The notes below the pieces were generated by a model. It saw only the letters and a program-made list of their open reading frames with translations, was not told the origin of the DNA and did not search any database. From a virus: a stretch of DNA of 39,619 bases. This document shows, one piece after another, positions 24,262 through 36,847 of this stretch (positions are counted from its first letter, which is position 1; the number at the start of each line of letters is the position of its first letter). Location: positions 1-39,619 of the IMG/VR virus record IMGVR_UViG_3300037076_000112; one strand, given 5' to 3'. A program made the position numbers and the translations under genes.

Positions 24262-24635
24262 GCGCTCACCTCGACAGCCAGGTCCTCGATCGTGATGGTC
24301 ATGCCGGTGGGCCCCTTGCGGGTGACCTTCTGCGTGAAGACCAGCTCGGCATGGCGGGGCCGGTCGTCGATCAGCAGGCCGCGCAGCTTGATGAAGTCGA
24401 CCAGGCCTTTGCAGCCGCCAGCCAGGTTGTCCTGGTCGAGGGCATTGCGCCCATGCCGGCAGATGGTGAGCCGCCGCTTGCCGGTCGCCTTCGGGATCGA
24501 GGGGATCCGGTTCAGGGCCGAGACGACCTCCCACTCGAGGACGGTCTCGGCGCGCTTGATGGCCGCCCAGTGCATGCGCCGAGTTTCATTCAGCGAGGGG
24601 GTGACGGACGGGATGGTGAGGGTCCAAGAGGTCAT
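24252..24635 (-). CDS. rusA: RusA-type Holliday junction resolvase
   Basis: A 127-residue protein. DQDNLAGGCKGLVD followed by GLLIDDRPRHAEL is the RusA hallmark: the acidic residues bind metal and cut four-way junctions. Residues 1-50 contain SLNETRRMHWAAIKRAET, also usual for the family. It lies just before the terminase genes, where phages need resolved DNA for packaging. Length (about 120-130) is normal. Confidence 0.9.
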   Translation of the reverse strand: MTSWTLTIPSVTPSLNETRRMHWAAIKRAETVLEWEVVSALNRIPSIPKATGKRRLTICRHGRNALDQDNLAGGCKGLVDFIKLRGLLIDDRPRHAELVFTQKVTRKGPTGMTITIEDLAVEVSACA

Positions 24636-24835
24636 TTCGCCTCCTGACGCTTCGCCCAGGCGATCAGGTTACGTTTGGTCGTCGCCTTGCCTGCCTCGGT
24701 CTTCCGGTAGGCCCGCTTCGAAGCGTTCCGACATTCACGGCATTCTCGGGCTCCCGTCCCCGGTTTGAACCGGGTGTTCGCCTCGGTCATCGGGTGACCC
24801 TTGGAGCAGGTCTTAACTCCTGGGAGCGGGGTCAT
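24632..24835 (-). CDS. Small cysteine- and lysine-rich protein
   Basis: A 67-residue protein. TCSKGHPM and CRECRNASKRAYRK make a likely zinc-binding pair, followed by a very basic C-terminus. It looks like small nucleic-acid-binding zinc proteins found beside HNH and resolvase genes. It is the first gene after the iteron-like array and the only one in the block with a free upstream region (117 bases). GGGAG stands upstream of the ATG. Confidence 0.66.
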   Translation of the reverse strand: MTPLPGVKTCSKGHPMTEANTRFKPGTGARECRECRNASKRAYRKTEAGKATTKRNLIAWAKRQEAK

Positions 24836-24849
24836 CGGACACTCCCCTG

Positions 24850-25056
24850 CGTTAGCTCGTTACCTACCCTCCACCTAAAGGTGGAGAGGTAACGGGGTAA
24901 CGCGATGCGCCCGTTACCTGCTGCGTTACCTAGATAACGGGTTGTAAGTTGCTTATTCTTCATCATTTGAGTTGCCTCCGTTACCTAGTGTTACCTGGAG
25001 CTTTTCGAGACCTAACGCGGTCAATTCCGGGCGACTTGCGTTACCTAGGTAACGCA
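24850..25056. repeat. GTTACCT palindromic array, candidate replication origin
   Basis: At least eight copies of CGTTACCT or its complement lie here. Forward copies are at 24858, 24912, 24924, 24979, 24990 (as TGTTACCT, from 24989) and 25039; reverse copies at 24887, 24896, 24932 (one mismatch) and 25047. They form palindromes: CGTTACCTAGGTAACG at 25039-25054, extending to 20 bases (25037-25056); CGTTACCT/AGATAACG at 24924-24939; and a long hairpin at 24858-24894 with inner stem CTCCACCT/AGGTGGAG. The right half lies in the last codons of the helicase gene. Iteron-like arrays at the edge of replication genes are typical of phage origins. Confidence 0.72.
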
Positions 25057-26176
25057 GTGCTTTAAGTTTAGAAATAGCCTGCCTTAAGTTGTTCGCCGCC
25101 TTGATCGGGACCAATTCCGGCCAGTACTTCTGCTCCATGGCTCGGCGGTCGATGTCTGGTAAAAAACGGGCGTCATAGATGTCCTTGAGAATCGACATCT
25201 GCTTGGAGAAAGCCGCGACCGCCTTCGACCCTCTGAACCGGGCGAGGAGCTCGACTGAATCGGGACTTGCCGACCATCGCCCCCGGTCGTCCTGGACGAT
25301 CACGCACCAATCGGGTCGGGATCCGTTGTTCGTTTTCGTCACCCCGAAGACCAGGATTTGGCCCCTCGACGCCATGTCGACGTCCATGCCTGCGCCGGCA
25401 GCCTCGTCCTCAGAGATCCGCGCGAACTGCATGGCGCACCGGAAATTGCCCACGATGGACCCAGAACCGCGAATCCATTCGGTCGACATGCGGTCGGCCA
25501 GGGTGGGCTTATCCTTCGCGTTCTTGGCGCCGTCCTGCCCCTTCCCGACGTGGTGCAGCATGATGGGCGAGAACCCCGACTCGGCGATCCGCGCGCAGGC
25601 GTTCAGGACCGGCCGCAGCCCCTGGACAGTGTTCTCGTCCCCATCGGAGACCCGGGCTAGGGTGTCTATCACCATGATCCCGGGCGTCACCTGGTGGGCC
25701 TCGTAGACACCGATTAGCGTCTCAATGTTGGGCATCAGGTCAGGCAGAAAACTGGTGGCCCCGCTGGATTTCCAGTTGATGAATGGCGCGCTGAAGTTCG
25801 TCCGGAAGTTCTTGGCGTCGGCGTCGGACCAGTCATCGGCGAACTTGTAGAGGTCGATGATGTTGAGCACCCGGGCGTGGAACTGGTTCTTGGGATCCTC
25901 GAGCCCGAAGAACACCGCAGCCCTCGGCCCGGAGGCCGGGAAGTTCAGGAATGGCTTCCCGGTGGCCACCGCGATGCAGAGCTGCAGGAACAGGAACGAC
26001 TTTCCCAGGCCCGGCTGCGAGGCCATCACGGCCGGAATTCCCTGGGGGATCAGGCCGGGCACCACCCACTTCTGCTCGGGTGGCACGTTGTCCAGGAACT
26101 CCCTGCCGAAGTAAACGGACAGGGCTGGAATCTCGACGAGCTTGTCCGGGTCCACTTCAAAGGCGAGGTGTCCCAT
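24953..26176 (-). CDS. RepA-like helicase / AAA_25 ATPase
   Basis: A protein of about 407 residues. PAVMASQPGLGKSFLF holds the Walker A (around 50-62), and TPGIMVIDTLARVSDG (about 165-178) the Walker B followed by the Thr/Arg pattern of RecA-fold hexameric helicases such as RepA of RSF1010. MLHHVGKGQDG is the conserved H-motif region. The ATG at 26176 shares one base with the primase stop; a GTG one codon earlier is possible. It should unwind DNA at the phage origin and act with the prim-pol upstream. The last 35 codons contain GTTACCT repeats, read as VTLGN-type peptides. Confidence 0.85.
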   Translation of the reverse strand: MGHLAFEVDPDKLVEIPALSVYFGREFLDNVPPEQKWVVPGLIPQGIPAVMASQPGLGKSFLFLQLCIAVATGKPFLNFPASGPRAAVFFGLEDPKNQFHARVLNIIDLYKFADDWSDADAKNFRTNFSAPFINWKSSGATSFLPDLMPNIETLIGVYEAHQVTPGIMVIDTLARVSDGDENTVQGLRPVLNACARIAESGFSPIMLHHVGKGQDGAKNAKDKPTLADRMSTEWIRGSGSIVGNFRCAMQFARISEDEAAGAGMDVDMASRGQILVFGVTKTNNGSRPDWCVIVQDDRGRWSASPDSVELLARFRGSKAVAAFSKQMSILKDIYDARFLPDIDRRAMEQKYWPELVPIKAANNLRQAISKLKALRYLGNASRPELTALGLEKLQVTLGNGGNSNDEE

Positions 26177-27048
26177 CACGCCTGCCCGTAGATCAGAAGG
26201 CCACCCACAGAGCGGGAGCGGGCCAGCATCGAGCCAAAGGACCCAGTGCCATACGCCCGGGCGTGGGTGATCTTCGCGGCCAGCTCCTGGTCACTCCAGG
26301 CCGGCTGGCACCGGGCATTCCACTCCCGCATGATGTCCAGCGCCTGGTCGTCGCTCAGGTTGAACCCACGAACCAGCCTGCAGGCCTGGACGTAGGTGTG
26401 ATTGTCACCACCCGCGCCTGTGATGGCTCCCGGGACGTTGTTCATGTAGCGCACGGCCAACTCGTAGGCATCTTTCTCGGCAGGGCCACCAAAGTGCAGC
26501 ACCGGCCGGACGAAGCTGGTGAGCGTGGCCTTCACCGCCTCGGGGAACCAGGATTCTTCGTAGAGCGGCAGCTCTGGCGGGGGAGTGATATTCGACTCGG
26601 AGGTCAGGCAGTAGACGTGGCCACTCGGATGGGTCGAACCGGGTCCAATGACCAGGCCGCCGTCCCCGCGGAGATCCACGGGGGGGATGTCCAGCACCCG
26701 GCAAGCGTTGGGGACTTTGGTTCCGGAATGGCGGTAGTAGTAGTGCCGCCCCTTCCGGGTCTGGACCACCATGGGCGTCTTCGTGCAGGTTTCCTCGATG
26801 AACTCACAGGCCTGGAGGCTATCGCCGTCCACGACCACGATGCCGGAGACGGCGCCCGTGATGATGGCCAGGTTGTGCTCGCCCTGAAGGAACCACTCCT
26901 CCACCTGCTCACGGGGGATGCGCTGGTCCTGGTACTGCTTCCAGGGCACAGCGGGGTGCTTGCCCTTCAGTGGGACGAGGACGACCTGGAACCCGTGGTC
27001 ATGGAAATCCAGCGCCCAGTCTCGAGAGGTGTAGGCCGGGATCGTCAT
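26176..27048 (-). CDS. Primase-polymerase (prim-pol, N-terminal type)
   Basis: A 290-residue protein. VVVDGD (residues 71-76) gives the DxD metal-binding motif, TRKGRHYYY (98-106) the conserved His, and VDLRGDGGLVIGPGSTHPSG the third motif of bifunctional DNA primase/polymerase (PF09250) proteins. The C-terminal 100 residues are a helical linker domain (RAVRYMNNV..., QALDIMREW) as in prim-pol-helicase pairs. The gene overlaps the next by one base, so the pair forms a split version of the usual primase-helicase. Confidence 0.9.
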   Translation of the reverse strand: MTIPAYTSRDWALDFHDHGFQVVLVPLKGKHPAVPWKQYQDQRIPREQVEEWFLQGEHNLAIITGAVSGIVVVDGDSLQACEFIEETCTKTPMVVQTRKGRHYYYRHSGTKVPNACRVLDIPPVDLRGDGGLVIGPGSTHPSGHVYCLTSESNITPPPELPLYEESWFPEAVKATLTSFVRPVLHFGGPAEKDAYELAVRYMNNVPGAITGAGGDNHTYVQACRLVRGFNLSDDQALDIMREWNARCQPAWSDQELAAKITHARAYGTGSFGSMLARSRSVGGLLIYGQA

Positions 27049-33204: not shown

Positions 33205-33600
33205 ATGAGCTATTGCCCCGAAGGCGTCTCCGAAGTCACCATCGGCCCCGGCACCCACCCGGTCTTCATGACCGGCATCAAGCGGATCACCGACCGCGAG
33301 AAGCTGGCCAAGTTCAGCGCCCAGGCCGTGTTCATCGCCACCTTCAAGTCCGTGGAAACGGCCGTGGAGAAGGACATGGTCATCAAGTTCTCCGGCGCGT
33401 CCTCCGACCACTACGCCGGCCTGAACATCGATCGCCTGCACCTGGCCGCCGGCCTCGAGGCCCCCGCGGCCGGTGAGCGCCTCGACCTCGAGAACCTGGT
33501 CAACCTCCTGGATGGCGTGGAGCTGCTCCTCGAGGTCAACGACAAGGGCTACGCCAACGCCGTCGTGATCCCCGAGCAGCCGGGCGAGGAAGTGGTCTGA
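33205..33600 (+). CDS. Hypothetical protein after the annealing ATPase, possible SSB substitute
   Basis: A 131-residue protein starting MSYCPEGVSEVTIGPG. Mixed beta/alpha with IATFKSVETAVEKDMVIKF and a C-terminus of LLEVNDKGYANAVVIPEQ plus acidic EEVV, which resembles the acidic tail of single-strand binding proteins. Position right after a Sak4-like gene is where SSB or DUF669-type partners are found. No motif settles it. Its stop is shared with the start of the low-GC gene. Confidence 0.62.
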   Translation: MSYCPEGVSEVTIGPGTHPVFMTGIKRITDREKLAKFSAQAVFIATFKSVETAVEKDMVIKFSGASSDHYAGLNIDRLHLAAGLEAPAAGERLDLENLVNLLDGVELLLEVNDKGYANAVVIPEQPGEEVV

Positions 33601-33602
33601 TG
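33592..33602 (+). repeat. 11-bp direct repeat, left flank of the low-GC gene
   Basis: GTGGTCTGATG spans the stop-start junction before the low-GC gene and recurs exactly at 34374-34384 across the junction after it. The repeat distance is 782 bases, one gene. Both junctions keep a TGATG overlap. Confidence 0.88.
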
Positions 33603-34382
33603 AAAACCACCCTGGAAACAATCACCCCAACCATGGCCGAAAAATACCTAGAAAAGAACCACCAAGGCAATCGCCATTTAAGAGTAACCCATGTTGGAAA
33701 TCTTGCTGCGGCGATGTCCCGTGGGGAGTGGATTCCAAATCATCAAGGAATCTCGTTTGATGTTCTTGGGAATTTGAATGACGGTCAGCACCGGCTCCGA
33801 GCCATTATTCAACACGGGCATCCGATTCAGATGAATGTTACTCGGGATGTCCCAGTTGATTCCTTCAAGACTGTCGACATTGGTATCAAAAGATCAGTGG
33901 CCGATGTTCTTGGTGGCTCTGTGCGCAAGAATGCCATTGGCGCTTTTTTATCCAGGATCTTGTATGGAAATTTTGGCGCCACACCAACAGGAATAGAACA
34001 GGTTATTAAGTTCTTTGAACCCGAAATTGAAATGCTAATCGCGCATTGCGGATCAACAAAAAAGACGTTTAGCAGTTCTGCTGTTCAGGCCGCTGCTGTG
34101 TTCCGTCTGCGCATGGACTCAAGCGCTGCTGATTACATCTTGAACACTTACAGAAGCATGGTTTTGGGCCATTTGAATGAACTCCCATCGGTGGCGGTTT
34201 CCTTCGTTAATCAAGTAAACAACAGGGCGATCAGTTCTTCTCGTGGTGAAGATTTGTTTGTTAGAGCTTTCATAACTTTTGATTACCGCAAATCTGGTAT
34301 TTCAGTTGTCGCCTACAAAGACAAGGCTCCCACGATGAGCCTTGTTCGGAACCGCTTCTGCACAGCTATCGGGGTGGTCTGA
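33600..34382 (+). CDS. Low-GC DGQHR-motif (ParB-like) protein, recently inserted
   Basis: A 260-residue protein. HLRVTHVGNLAAAMSRGEW, FDVLGNLNDGQHRLRAIIQH and VDSFKTVDIGIKRSVADVLG follow the ParB/sulfiredoxin-like fold of proteins with a DGQHR motif (residues about 62-67), common in phages but of unclear function; some relatives bind DNA or nucleotides. Codon use is starkly different: A/T-ending codons (aaa, gat, ttt, att) dominate, whereas both neighbours end almost always in G/C. The 11-bp repeats at both ends mark an insertion that left neighbouring genes whole. Confidence 0.83.
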   Translation: MKTTLETITPTMAEKYLEKNHQGNRHLRVTHVGNLAAAMSRGEWIPNHQGISFDVLGNLNDGQHRLRAIIQHGHPIQMNVTRDVPVDSFKTVDIGIKRSVADVLGGSVRKNAIGAFLSRILYGNFGATPTGIEQVIKFFEPEIEMLIAHCGSTKKTFSSSAVQAAAVFRLRMDSSAADYILNTYRSMVLGHLNELPSVAVSFVNQVNNRAISSSRGEDLFVRAFITFDYRKSGISVVAYKDKAPTMSLVRNRFCTAIGVV

Positions 34383-35093: not shown

Positions 35094-35936
35094 ATGACCG
35101 CAACCAATCCCCCCGACCGCACCGCCATCGATACCGTGCTGATCAAGCTCAACCTGGGCTGCCAGTACATGGAGATCAACCACCCGTCCAAGGCTGACGT
35201 GAAGAAGGCCTCCGAAGCCGCCAAGGACGCCGCGGACATCCTGAAGGCCTGCTTGGTCCTGCTGGACCACGATATCTACGTCGTCCAGGAAGCACCCCCG
35301 GCTCCTGGTGTGCCCCTGTTCAAGGATTCCGGAGAGCCGAGCAGGGGCGCGGAAGTGCCTGCTCCCGAGCCTACGCCCGAGCCCGCCAAGGTTCTTCCCA
35401 CACTGGGCATCATCGACGTTGAGGTCGTCCGCAAGTTCAAGGTGGGAGACAGGGTAAAGGAGGTCCTCTGCCAGGAAGACCTCGACGCTGGCGAGAAGCC
35501 CCGCACTGGGGTCATCGATGAGGACGATGGCAGCACCGAGGACAACGCTCCCTACTTCGTGACGTTGGATGGCGATGGCTACAGCTCCTGGTTCGACGCC
35601 GCCGAACTGGAGATGGTCGAGGCCGGCCCCGAACTGACTGCCGATCAGAAGACCTTGGCCGAGCCCTTCCCTAAGGGCACCAAGGCCGAGCAGAAGGCAG
35701 TCTTCGGACAGCGCCTCACCACACTGAAGGACATCTTCTGCCAGCGTCTCGACCTGGCCGGCAGCACCGCGACCCTGGACTCTCAACTCAAGGAGTTCCG
35801 CCCCCACCGCAATGCCTGGGCAGCTGCCTGGAAGGCCGACGCCAAGGCCACCTGGCCGAAGCTACTGGCTGCCATCGTCGAGGCCAACACCCTCGCCAAC
35901 AAGTTCACCAGCTGGGCGCCCGAGGTGGCTGCATGA
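35094..35936 (+). CDS. Hypothetical protein of the early plus-strand operon
   Basis: A 280-residue protein; the ATG at 35094 has TGAGGAACCC ahead, so the shorter start is chosen. Residues 1-60 are helical (MEINHPSKADVKKASEAAKD); 80-110 Pro-rich; 120-185 a small beta-domain with RKFKVGDRVKEVL and SSWFDAAELEMVEA, similar to SH3-like folds; the C-terminus (200-280) is helical. No family recognised. It overlaps the pentapeptide gene by four bases. Confidence 0.7.
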   Translation: MTATNPPDRTAIDTVLIKLNLGCQYMEINHPSKADVKKASEAAKDAADILKACLVLLDHDIYVVQEAPPAPGVPLFKDSGEPSRGAEVPAPEPTPEPAKVLPTLGIIDVEVVRKFKVGDRVKEVLCQEDLDAGEKPRTGVIDEDDGSTEDNAPYFVTLDGDGYSSWFDAAELEMVEAGPELTADQKTLAEPFPKGTKAEQKAVFGQRLTTLKDIFCQRLDLAGSTATLDSQLKEFRPHRNAWAAAWKADAKATWPKLLAAIVEANTLANKFTSWAPEVAA

Positions 35937-36847
35937 GCCAGGAGAAGCCCACCCCCGAAGAACTGAAGCAGATCCTCGCTGACCACCTGCTCTGGCGCCA
36001 GTCCTACGGCGCCAAGGGCAAGCAGGCCAACCTCGTCAGGGCCAACCTCGTCAGGGCCAACCTCGACGGGGCCAACCTCGACGGGGCCAACCTCGACGGG
36101 GCCAACCTCGACGGGGCCTACCTCGTCAGGGCCAACCTCGACGGGGCCTACCTCGTCAGGGCCAACCTCGTCAGGGCCAACCTCGCCGGGGCCAACCTCG
36201 ACGGGGCCTACCTCGTCAGGGCCAACCTCGACGGGGCCTACCTCATCAGGGCCAACCTCGTCAGGGCCAACCTCGCCGGGGCCAACCTCGCCGGGGCCTA
36301 CCTCGTCAGGGCCAACCTCGCCGGGGCCAACCTCGACGGGGCCTACCTCGACGGGGCCTACCTCGACGGGGCCTACCTCGTCAGGGCCAACCTCGACGGG
36401 GCCCGTGGTTTCGAGCCCTTCATCTGCGTCGGACCGATCGGCAGCCGCCAGGCCTACACCACCGTCTTCCTCTACCAGGACAAGATCGTCTGCGGCTGCT
36501 TCACCGGCACCCTCGCGCAATTCGAGTCCAAGGTGCGCAGGACCCACGCCGACAACCCGGCGCACCTGGCCGAATATATGGGCCTCATCGCCTATGCCAA
36601 GGTGCTCCGCGAAGCGCAGCCCGAGCGCCCCGCCCAAGAGCCGGAACCGCCAGCGCCCTTCGCTGAAGGTGCCCGGGTGCGTCTCACGGCCGCAGGCAAG
36701 GAGAAGTATCCCTGGGCCACGAGCGACCAAGGCGACGTCACCAGCTGCGCCGGCGGCTGGACCCGCATCGAGTTCGACGACTGCTACATGAGCTTCGCCA
36801 ATGAGTTCGTGGAGCGCGTCGAGGAAGCCGAGAAGGCCGCCTCATGA
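35933..36847 (+). CDS. Pentapeptide-repeat protein with C-terminal domain
   Basis: A 304-residue protein. Residues 32-156 are 25 perfect pentapeptides of types ANLVR, ANLDG, ANLAG, AYLVR, AYLDG and AYLIR, which would form a right-handed quadrilateral beta-helix with Leu in the central position. A domain with PFICVGPIGSRQAYTTVFLY and CGCFTGTLAQFESKVRRTH follows (residues 160-215), then a Pro-rich hinge and an SH3-like end (ARVRLTAAGKEKYPW). Such helices may mimic DNA, as in Qnr and MfpA, so gyrase or nuclease inhibition is thinkable. The 15-bp repeats are so alike that recent expansion is likely. The long ORF on the opposite strand is a shadow. Confidence 0.86.
   Translation: MSQEKPTPEELKQILADHLLWRQSYGAKGKQANLVRANLVRANLDGANLDGANLDGANLDGAYLVRANLDGAYLVRANLVRANLAGANLDGAYLVRANLDGAYLIRANLVRANLAGANLAGAYLVRANLAGANLDGAYLDGAYLDGAYLVRANLDGARGFEPFICVGPIGSRQAYTTVFLYQDKIVCGCFTGTLAQFESKVRRTHADNPAHLAEYMGLIAYAKVLREAQPERPAQEPEPPAPFAEGARVRLTAAGKEKYPWATSDQGDVTSCAGGWTRIEFDDCYMSFANEFVERVEEAEKAAS
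36026..36400 (+). repeat. 25 tandem copies of a 15-bp coding repeat
   Basis: Units are gccAACCTCGTCAGG, gccAACCTCGACGGG, gccTACCTCGTCAGG and close variants, with no indels. The near-identity at synonymous sites points to recent slippage or unequal exchange, so copy number may vary in a population. Confidence 0.95.

Follow-up and report, generated by a model that had tools for sequence, protein, structure and literature searches.

A repeat array at the 3' end of a RepA-like helicase gene, probably an iteron-type replication origin that adjoins its own initiator

In this work we analyzed a repeat array located at positions 24,850-25,056 of a phage genome; the whole stretch analyzed, hereafter the window, is a complete IMG/VR virus record of 39,619 bases with a GC content of approximately 65%. 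The best explanation for this array, which we consider probable, is an iteron-type replication origin that begins within the last codons of its initiator's gene and continues immediately 3' of it. The initiator would be a helicase whose C-terminal domain binds the repeats; the spacer between the two repeat sets would melt, and the helicase C-terminus and the array would be exchanged, or co-evolve, as one module. The anatomy of the array, its conserved place and layout, and the covariation of its repeats with the C-terminal domain of the helicase are established here by sequence comparison. A first-pass annotation had proposed either an origin with initiator sites or the operators of a late switch; the origin is strongly favoured, since the array tracks an AAA_25 helicase across unrelated phages and hosts and brackets an AT-rich spacer. 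Further support for the origin comes from the observations that the array stays where the terminase and structural genes are replaced, and that its position and layout match those of the origins of phage-inducible chromosomal islands (PICI). The features of the region are the following:

24632..24835, - strand: small HNH-type protein, 3' of the array (PHROG 1492, 1.9e-11)
24832..24966, - strand: 44-codon ORF across set A; its start overlaps the helicase end and its stop overlaps the HNH start
24850..24939, no strand: repeat set A (downstream in the helicase sense), GTTACC at 24859, 24887(-), 24895(-), 24913 and 24925
24850 and 24932(-): near-copies of set A, from a one-mismatch scan
24858..24894, - strand: bulged hairpin, two inverted repeats enclosing an inner 7-bp stem (CTCCACC-TTTA-GGTGGAG on the - strand)
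24937..24978, no strand: AT-rich spacer separating sets A and B, candidate unwinding element, with the helicase stop codon inside
24979..25056, no strand: repeat set B (upstream), within the last helicase codons; sites at 24980 and 24990 plus the 20-bp palindrome
25037..25056, no strand: 20-bp perfect palindrome TGCGTTACCTAGGTAACGCA, two repeats head-to-head
24953..26179, - strand: RSF1010-RepA-like hexameric helicase (AAA_25, SF4), 408 aa, proposed initiator (Pfam PF13481, 1.3e-28)
24992..25267, - strand: helicase C-terminal domain (about residues 305-396), predicted winged helix (model pLDDT 81)
26176..27048, - strand: Prim-Pol (AEP primase-polymerase), 290 aa, proposed primase (Pfam PF09250, 6e-23)

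The motif GTTACCT occurs nine times in the window and eight of these copies lie at 24,859-25,053; the mean in shuffled sequences was 0.68, and nine copies were never reached in 100 shuffles. Seven of the eight window copies of CGTTACCT and 9 of the 13 copies of GTTACC fall inside the array, and with the single-mismatch copies of CGTTACCT at 24,850, 24,895, 24,932 and 24,989 there are about ten copies altogether, or slightly more, in both orientations, as had been noticed at first sight. In 60 first-order simulations GTTACC reached at most 2 copies per 207-base stretch, and the best cluster of any 6-mer reached 5, versus the 9 observed in the array. The palindrome was located exactly where the first-pass annotation had placed it, and the right part of the array, which had been described as embedded in codons, corresponds to set B within the final codons of the helicase. 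The first-pass annotation saw no other cluster in the window. There is a single array of this kind, and one stronger 6-mer cluster, the only one that outscores it, is found at 36 kb in the coding repeat of a pentapeptide-repeat protein. Due to this cluster, a motif-agnostic test ranks the array of the window itself as unexceptional. The pentapeptide-repeat gene (35933-36847, + strand; PF00805, 5e-36) carries about 15 tandem AACCTCGGGCCA units within 300 bases; this protein is also present in the relatives L132 and L133, and phage record MW202557 (L178) has another such gene in the vicinity of its helicase.

The spacer between the two sets has a GC content of 0.30-0.38, and its 33-base minimum of 0.30 is among the lowest 0.1% or so (0.08%) of the genome windows. 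The array has the general attributes of an iteron-type origin, i.e. repeats beyond chance, an adjacent initiator gene, and an AT-rich region. Cumulative GC skew, which had been suggested as a check, shows no extremum at 24.95 kb and is flat from approximately 19.5 to 27.5 kb; given that skew in this genome tracks gene direction, it is uninformative either way for the origin. Regarding base composition, the gene at 33600-34382 (+ strand) has a third-position GC of 0.47 in this 65% GC genome and is probably a recent acquisition.

The order of the genes on the - strand is Prim-Pol, helicase, array, HNH, a RusA-like protein (named by its sequence, without a database match), and the large terminase, whose gene lies approximately 1.2 kb downstream of the array. 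The initial proposal that the array ends a pair formed by a prim-pol and a RepA-like helicase is confirmed by the matches to PF09250 and PF13481 and by the fold: the best PDB match of the helicase model is RSF1010 RepA (1olo, E 9.6e-10), with 1g8y and 1nlf likewise at the top. AAA_25 is the only Pfam match of this protein. Its final 100 residues or so form a separately folded domain in the predicted model (pLDDT 81), whose nearest folds are mostly winged helices of the MarR/MepR type; the match is moderate, with Z scores of 8-9 and up to 9.3, and the best Foldseek E value against winged helices is 0.098. The array had also been said to span the only free gap before the structural genes, but this gap is covered by the 44-codon ORF at 24,832-24,966 (- strand), which overlaps both neighbours and may therefore be translated; within it the repeats impose V-T and L-G-N-like peptides. 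Equivalents can be read in the relatives L010, L011 and L012, and in L009 the HNH gene is fused to a frame that crosses the array. The helicase frame itself extends over the entire array in two Paracoccus contigs, L161 (2125-3756) and L163 (7060-7998), where it encodes a V-T rich tail.

The hairpin at 24,858-24,894 has 8 + 7 = 15 pairs and a 3-base bulge, with the loop TAAA on the + strand and TTTA on the helicase-sense strand; the bulged hairpin reported at first is thus present, with 15 pairs instead of 16-bp arms. The strand around it folds at z = -4.7 relative to shuffled sequences. A hairpin with six or more pairs and, read in the sense of the helicase gene, a TTTA loop was found in 10 of 22 arrays versus 0 of 743 control windows from the same records, usually in the downstream set and flanked by inverted repeats. 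The stems vary in sequence among phages and complementarity is kept; these hairpins were selected for pairing, which makes a figure of 100% paired automatic, and the evidence is limited to the diversity of their pair types and the comparison with control windows.

Close relatives of the helicase were identified by a protein scan (L009-L012) and by a motif scan (L056). The helicases of these five fetched relatives are 50-66% identical to that of the window, and in all five an array with a hairpin occupies the same position with repeats different from those of the window: GTGAC (L009), CGTTAC (L010), GGTTACC (L011), GGTTAC (L012) and CGTTACC (L056). Absence of the array from relatives had been named as the result that would speak against an origin; the array is there, built of other repeats. 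The AT-rich spacer was present in the four relatives examined for it (L009-L012). The motif-agnostic test found the array unexceptional in the relatives' loci L132, L133 and L134, for which the evidence is the aligned position of the repeats. In addition, three loci of the relatives have every copy of their main repeat inside the array (CGTTAC, 10/10 copies in L133; CGGTTA, 7/7 in L134; GGTTAC, 10/10 in L135). The Prim-Pol and the helicase are matched in the relatives wherever the record extends that far, whereas the large terminase and most structural genes of the window have no match among the fetched loci. A profile search with the helicase in bacterial genomes found no relatives.

The association between array and helicase was also surveyed in other phages and elements. 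A loose motif scan listed mostly chance pairs, and a stricter four-repeat pattern (GTTACC x2, spacer, GGTAAC x2) was used instead, for which chance matches are estimated at well below one in the genome collection. This pattern was found in 18 viral contigs and in 8 bacterial or archaeal contigs. An AAA_25-type helicase precedes the array in L146, L152, L153, L154 and L157, where the array starts at its 3' end; in the two contigs from Paracoccus, L161 and L163, the array is embedded in the codons for the C-terminus of such a helicase. The GTTACC motif is not limited to one helicase class, given that the array follows a VapE-domain primase-helicase in L156 and L158, and a DUF5906 protein in L147. 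Additional GTTACC arrays were observed in other settings: within the frames of other proteins (L017, 1096-1170; L034, 1926-2050), where they resemble internal origins of the lambda O type; beside structural genes, as 14 copies, several of them spaced by 11 bases, with identical array sequence in the phage contigs L079 (6668-6944) and L038 (473-749); and as an 11-copy array at the start of a Prim-Pol/DUF5906 gene in a Bifidobacterium prophage-like locus (L166, 2821-3044; L155, 1395-1618).

For a motif-blind test, the clustering of any 6-mer in a 500-base stretch at the 3' end of the helicase gene was compared with that in every other window of the locus. Twenty named phages were chosen for their RepA-like helicases before their arrays were inspected and six more were added; these 26 phages were hand-picked for diversity rather than sampled randomly, and they include some that are closely related to one another. 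The helicase 3' end beats all other windows of the locus in 15 of the 26 (11 of the 20, and then 4 of the 6: Castelnaud, Diane, Javan629 and CRP-831). The 6-mers are diverse: CTACAA x11 in CRP-823, GTATAA x10 in CRP-821; CTGGAA in CRP-406; GTGACA x14 in Rhizobium 16-3 and x15 in RHph_X2_25; CTCCGC x13 in RHph_N65; GGTTCA x12 in XX1924; GGTACA x11 in 1N2-2; and GGGACA in CGphi29, Javan46 and ct3Oc712. The remaining 11 phages lack an array at this position; it is displaced in 2 and none was seen in 9. In ctyzp037 the array lies 1.4 kb downstream, and in Vibrio phage 1.123.O (L179, 1301-1557) nine CCGCGA repeats are found upstream of the RepA-like helicase and not 3' of it. No array is present in L189, a Salmonella element that encodes an AAA_25 helicase. 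The link between helicase and array is common, not universal. Arrays occur together with separate Prim-Pol, fused Prim-Pol or Toprim primases; since they persist while the type of primase differs, the helicase is their common factor.

A group of five roseophages, all with an identical hairpin, indicates which protein would read the repeats. CRP-811 and CRP-823 share a C-terminal domain that is 99% identical and the repeat TTTGTAG, with primase parts that are 82% identical. Similarly, CRP-821, CRP-822 and CRP-831 have C-terminal domains that are 99-100% identical and all carry the repeat TTTATAC, even though the identity of their primase parts falls as low as 82%. In contrast, CRP-821 and CRP-823 are 97-98% identical in primase and core and 76% identical in the C-terminus, and their repeats differ. 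From these alignments, the identity of the repeat appears to follow the C-terminal domain of the helicase and not the primase or the core. Given the adjacency of the two, a single recombination tract could carry the C-terminal codons and the array together in these phages. The Prim-Pol was also considered as the reader of the repeats, by analogy with the recognition of TTTGGTTA by the enzyme of phage NrS-1, and it is disfavoured: no array lies 3' of the PrimPol gene in five loci outside the AAA_25 helicase group, and arrays are found with Toprim-type primases.

In the mechanism that we propose, the C-terminal winged helix of the SF4 helicase would bind both sets of repeats and concentrate the helicase on the site, the AT-rich spacer would melt and helicase rings would load, the separate Prim-Pol would lay primers, and host or phage polymerase would extend them. 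The TTTA-loop hairpin would probably serve as a single-strand signal for priming or loading, comparable to the ssi hairpins of RSF1010. The repeats would diverge between relatives because the C-terminus of the helicase and the array are exchanged, or co-evolve, as a single module. A broader proposal, to which we give a little less than an even chance and which is advanced tentatively, is that RepA-like SF4 helicases are self-initiators with a C-terminal winged helix, phage-specific 3' iterons and a TTTA hairpin, and form a widespread undescribed class whose specificity switches when the C-terminal domain and the array are swapped together. A search of the open-access PMC literature turned up no account of iteron origins located 3' of AAA_25 helicase genes in phages. 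If the proposal is true, a phage origin could be located from the end of its RepA-like helicase gene, and the initiator and its binding domain would be named simultaneously; CRP-821 and CRP-823, as a naturally swapped pair, would provide a ready-made test of specificity. A fast change of the repeats would fit escape from an attack directed to the origin or the avoidance of cross-recognition, as in the PLE/Odn case (PMC8263062).

Among the other explanations, it is unlikely that the repeats are replication-control iterons, involved in copy number or incompatibility like the crr of P4, at which the binding of helicase or Prim-Pol would limit initiation from an origin located elsewhere. Iteron arrays of plasmids and P4 act in control as well as in initiation, and an identical binding protein and position would be expected in both cases; nonetheless, two sets round an AT-rich spacer with a conserved hairpin suit initiation better, the window has a single array of this kind, and the same layout is a tested origin in PICI. 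We regard as very improbable that the repeats are the operators of a transcriptional repressor or of a late-gene switch. In its favour are the position of the array, with replication genes on one side and structural genes on the other, and a neighbouring gene for an IrrE-like protein, a situation common in temperate phages. Against it, no promoter-like site was found within 24,500-25,400 and the array itself has no terminator-like site, half of its length is helicase coding sequence, the overlap of stop and start codons at either end points to an uninterrupted operon, and elsewhere arrays follow the helicase regardless of the next gene; the switch proposed in the first-pass annotation is thus left without support. 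A packaging site (cos/pac, or a binding site of the small terminase) would fit the nearby large terminase and the GTTACC four-repeat arrays that immediately precede genes for a small terminase-like protein and a large terminase in L145, L148, L149 and L159, where no replication gene is visible on the fetched stretch; however, the relatives keep the array in loci that lack a match to the large terminase of the window, and in named phages the genes that follow the array encode thymidylate synthase, NTP-PPase, methyltransferase or hypothetical proteins, which makes this explanation extremely improbable. The least credible explanation is an RNA-level element (attenuator, terminator or translational coupling hairpin), which would account for a stable hairpin at a gene end whose stems vary and remain paired, but not for repeats in both orientations and a palindrome that resemble protein-binding sites on double-stranded DNA, nor for the lack of a T-run behind the hairpin, and which leaves the AT-rich spacer without a role.

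The iteron-type origin that we favour can be compared with several known systems. The published origin of the S. thermophilus phage Sfi21 is reportedly near its primase gene. For the Prim-Pol of phage NrS-1, the template recognition sequence TTTGGTTA or GTG was suggested to mark the start of replication (PMC8718748), and the genome has two copies of the 8-mer (PMC7102993); in this phage there is no array, whereas the arrays surveyed here follow the AAA_25 helicase and not the Prim-Pol. In the RepA/ori of PLE, which faces the ICP1 nuclease Odn, the iterons change together with the DNA-binding domain of the initiator, and the two are swapped as a unit (PMC8263062), although in that case the domain is an N-terminal RepA_N, the origin is in a separate intergenic region, and the iterons are of about 30 bp.

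Two plasmids resemble the window in other aspects. In pRN1 an essential stem-loop lies directly 3' of the gene for the Prim-Pol-helicase orf904, and similar stem-loops occur in some phages (PMC4234260); the Prim-Pol and helicase, the C-terminal winged helix (predicted in the window) and the stem-loop 3' of the gene are shared with the window. In contrast, pRN1 lacks iterons, its SF3 helicase is fused to the Prim-Pol, and its stem-loop measures 100 nt, of which the loop takes up 58 nt, whereas the window has a short hairpin of 15 pairs, many iterons and an SF4 helicase. In the IncQ plasmid RSF1010, RepC binds the iterons, RepA, which itself does not bind them, unwinds the DNA, and short stem-loops serve the primase (PMC4234260). 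Its oriV is similar to the window in the fold of the RepA helicase, the dedicated primase, the iterons and the presence of short stem-loops, those of the plasmid (ssi) being exposed by the helicase; the hairpin of the window would be a counterpart. The repeats of the window differ in being of about 8 bp and in both orientations, and no RepC was recognised in general scans of window proteins; the extra C-terminal domain of the window helicase would replace it.

The window also resembles in layout the PICI and SaPI elements, such as SaPIbov1 and EcCICFT073, in which a primase gene and an initiator helicase gene are followed immediately 3' by the origin. In PICI the origin was described as lying immediately 3' of the initiator gene, with two sets of iterons flanking an AT-rich region, and that of EcCICFT073 was shown to support plasmid maintenance (PMC6092414); in our reading of this region TCTACC/GGTAGA is repeated 11 times, with copies in either orientation, right behind the 3' end of rep, and the TTTA-loop hairpin was not found in it. 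The downstream iterons of SaPI Rep and of Cch2 of SCCmec are recognised through the C-terminal domains of these proteins (PMC7581432). The differences are that the initiator of these elements is of the D5/SF3 type (Pfam D5_N and DUF5906 in EcCICFT073 rep) and that of the window an SF4 AAA_25 protein, and that the window belongs to a phage, which encodes a terminase and structural proteins of its own. Judging from these features, the array of the window would work like a rep-ori of the PICI type, outside that family, since its helicase belongs to another superfamily.
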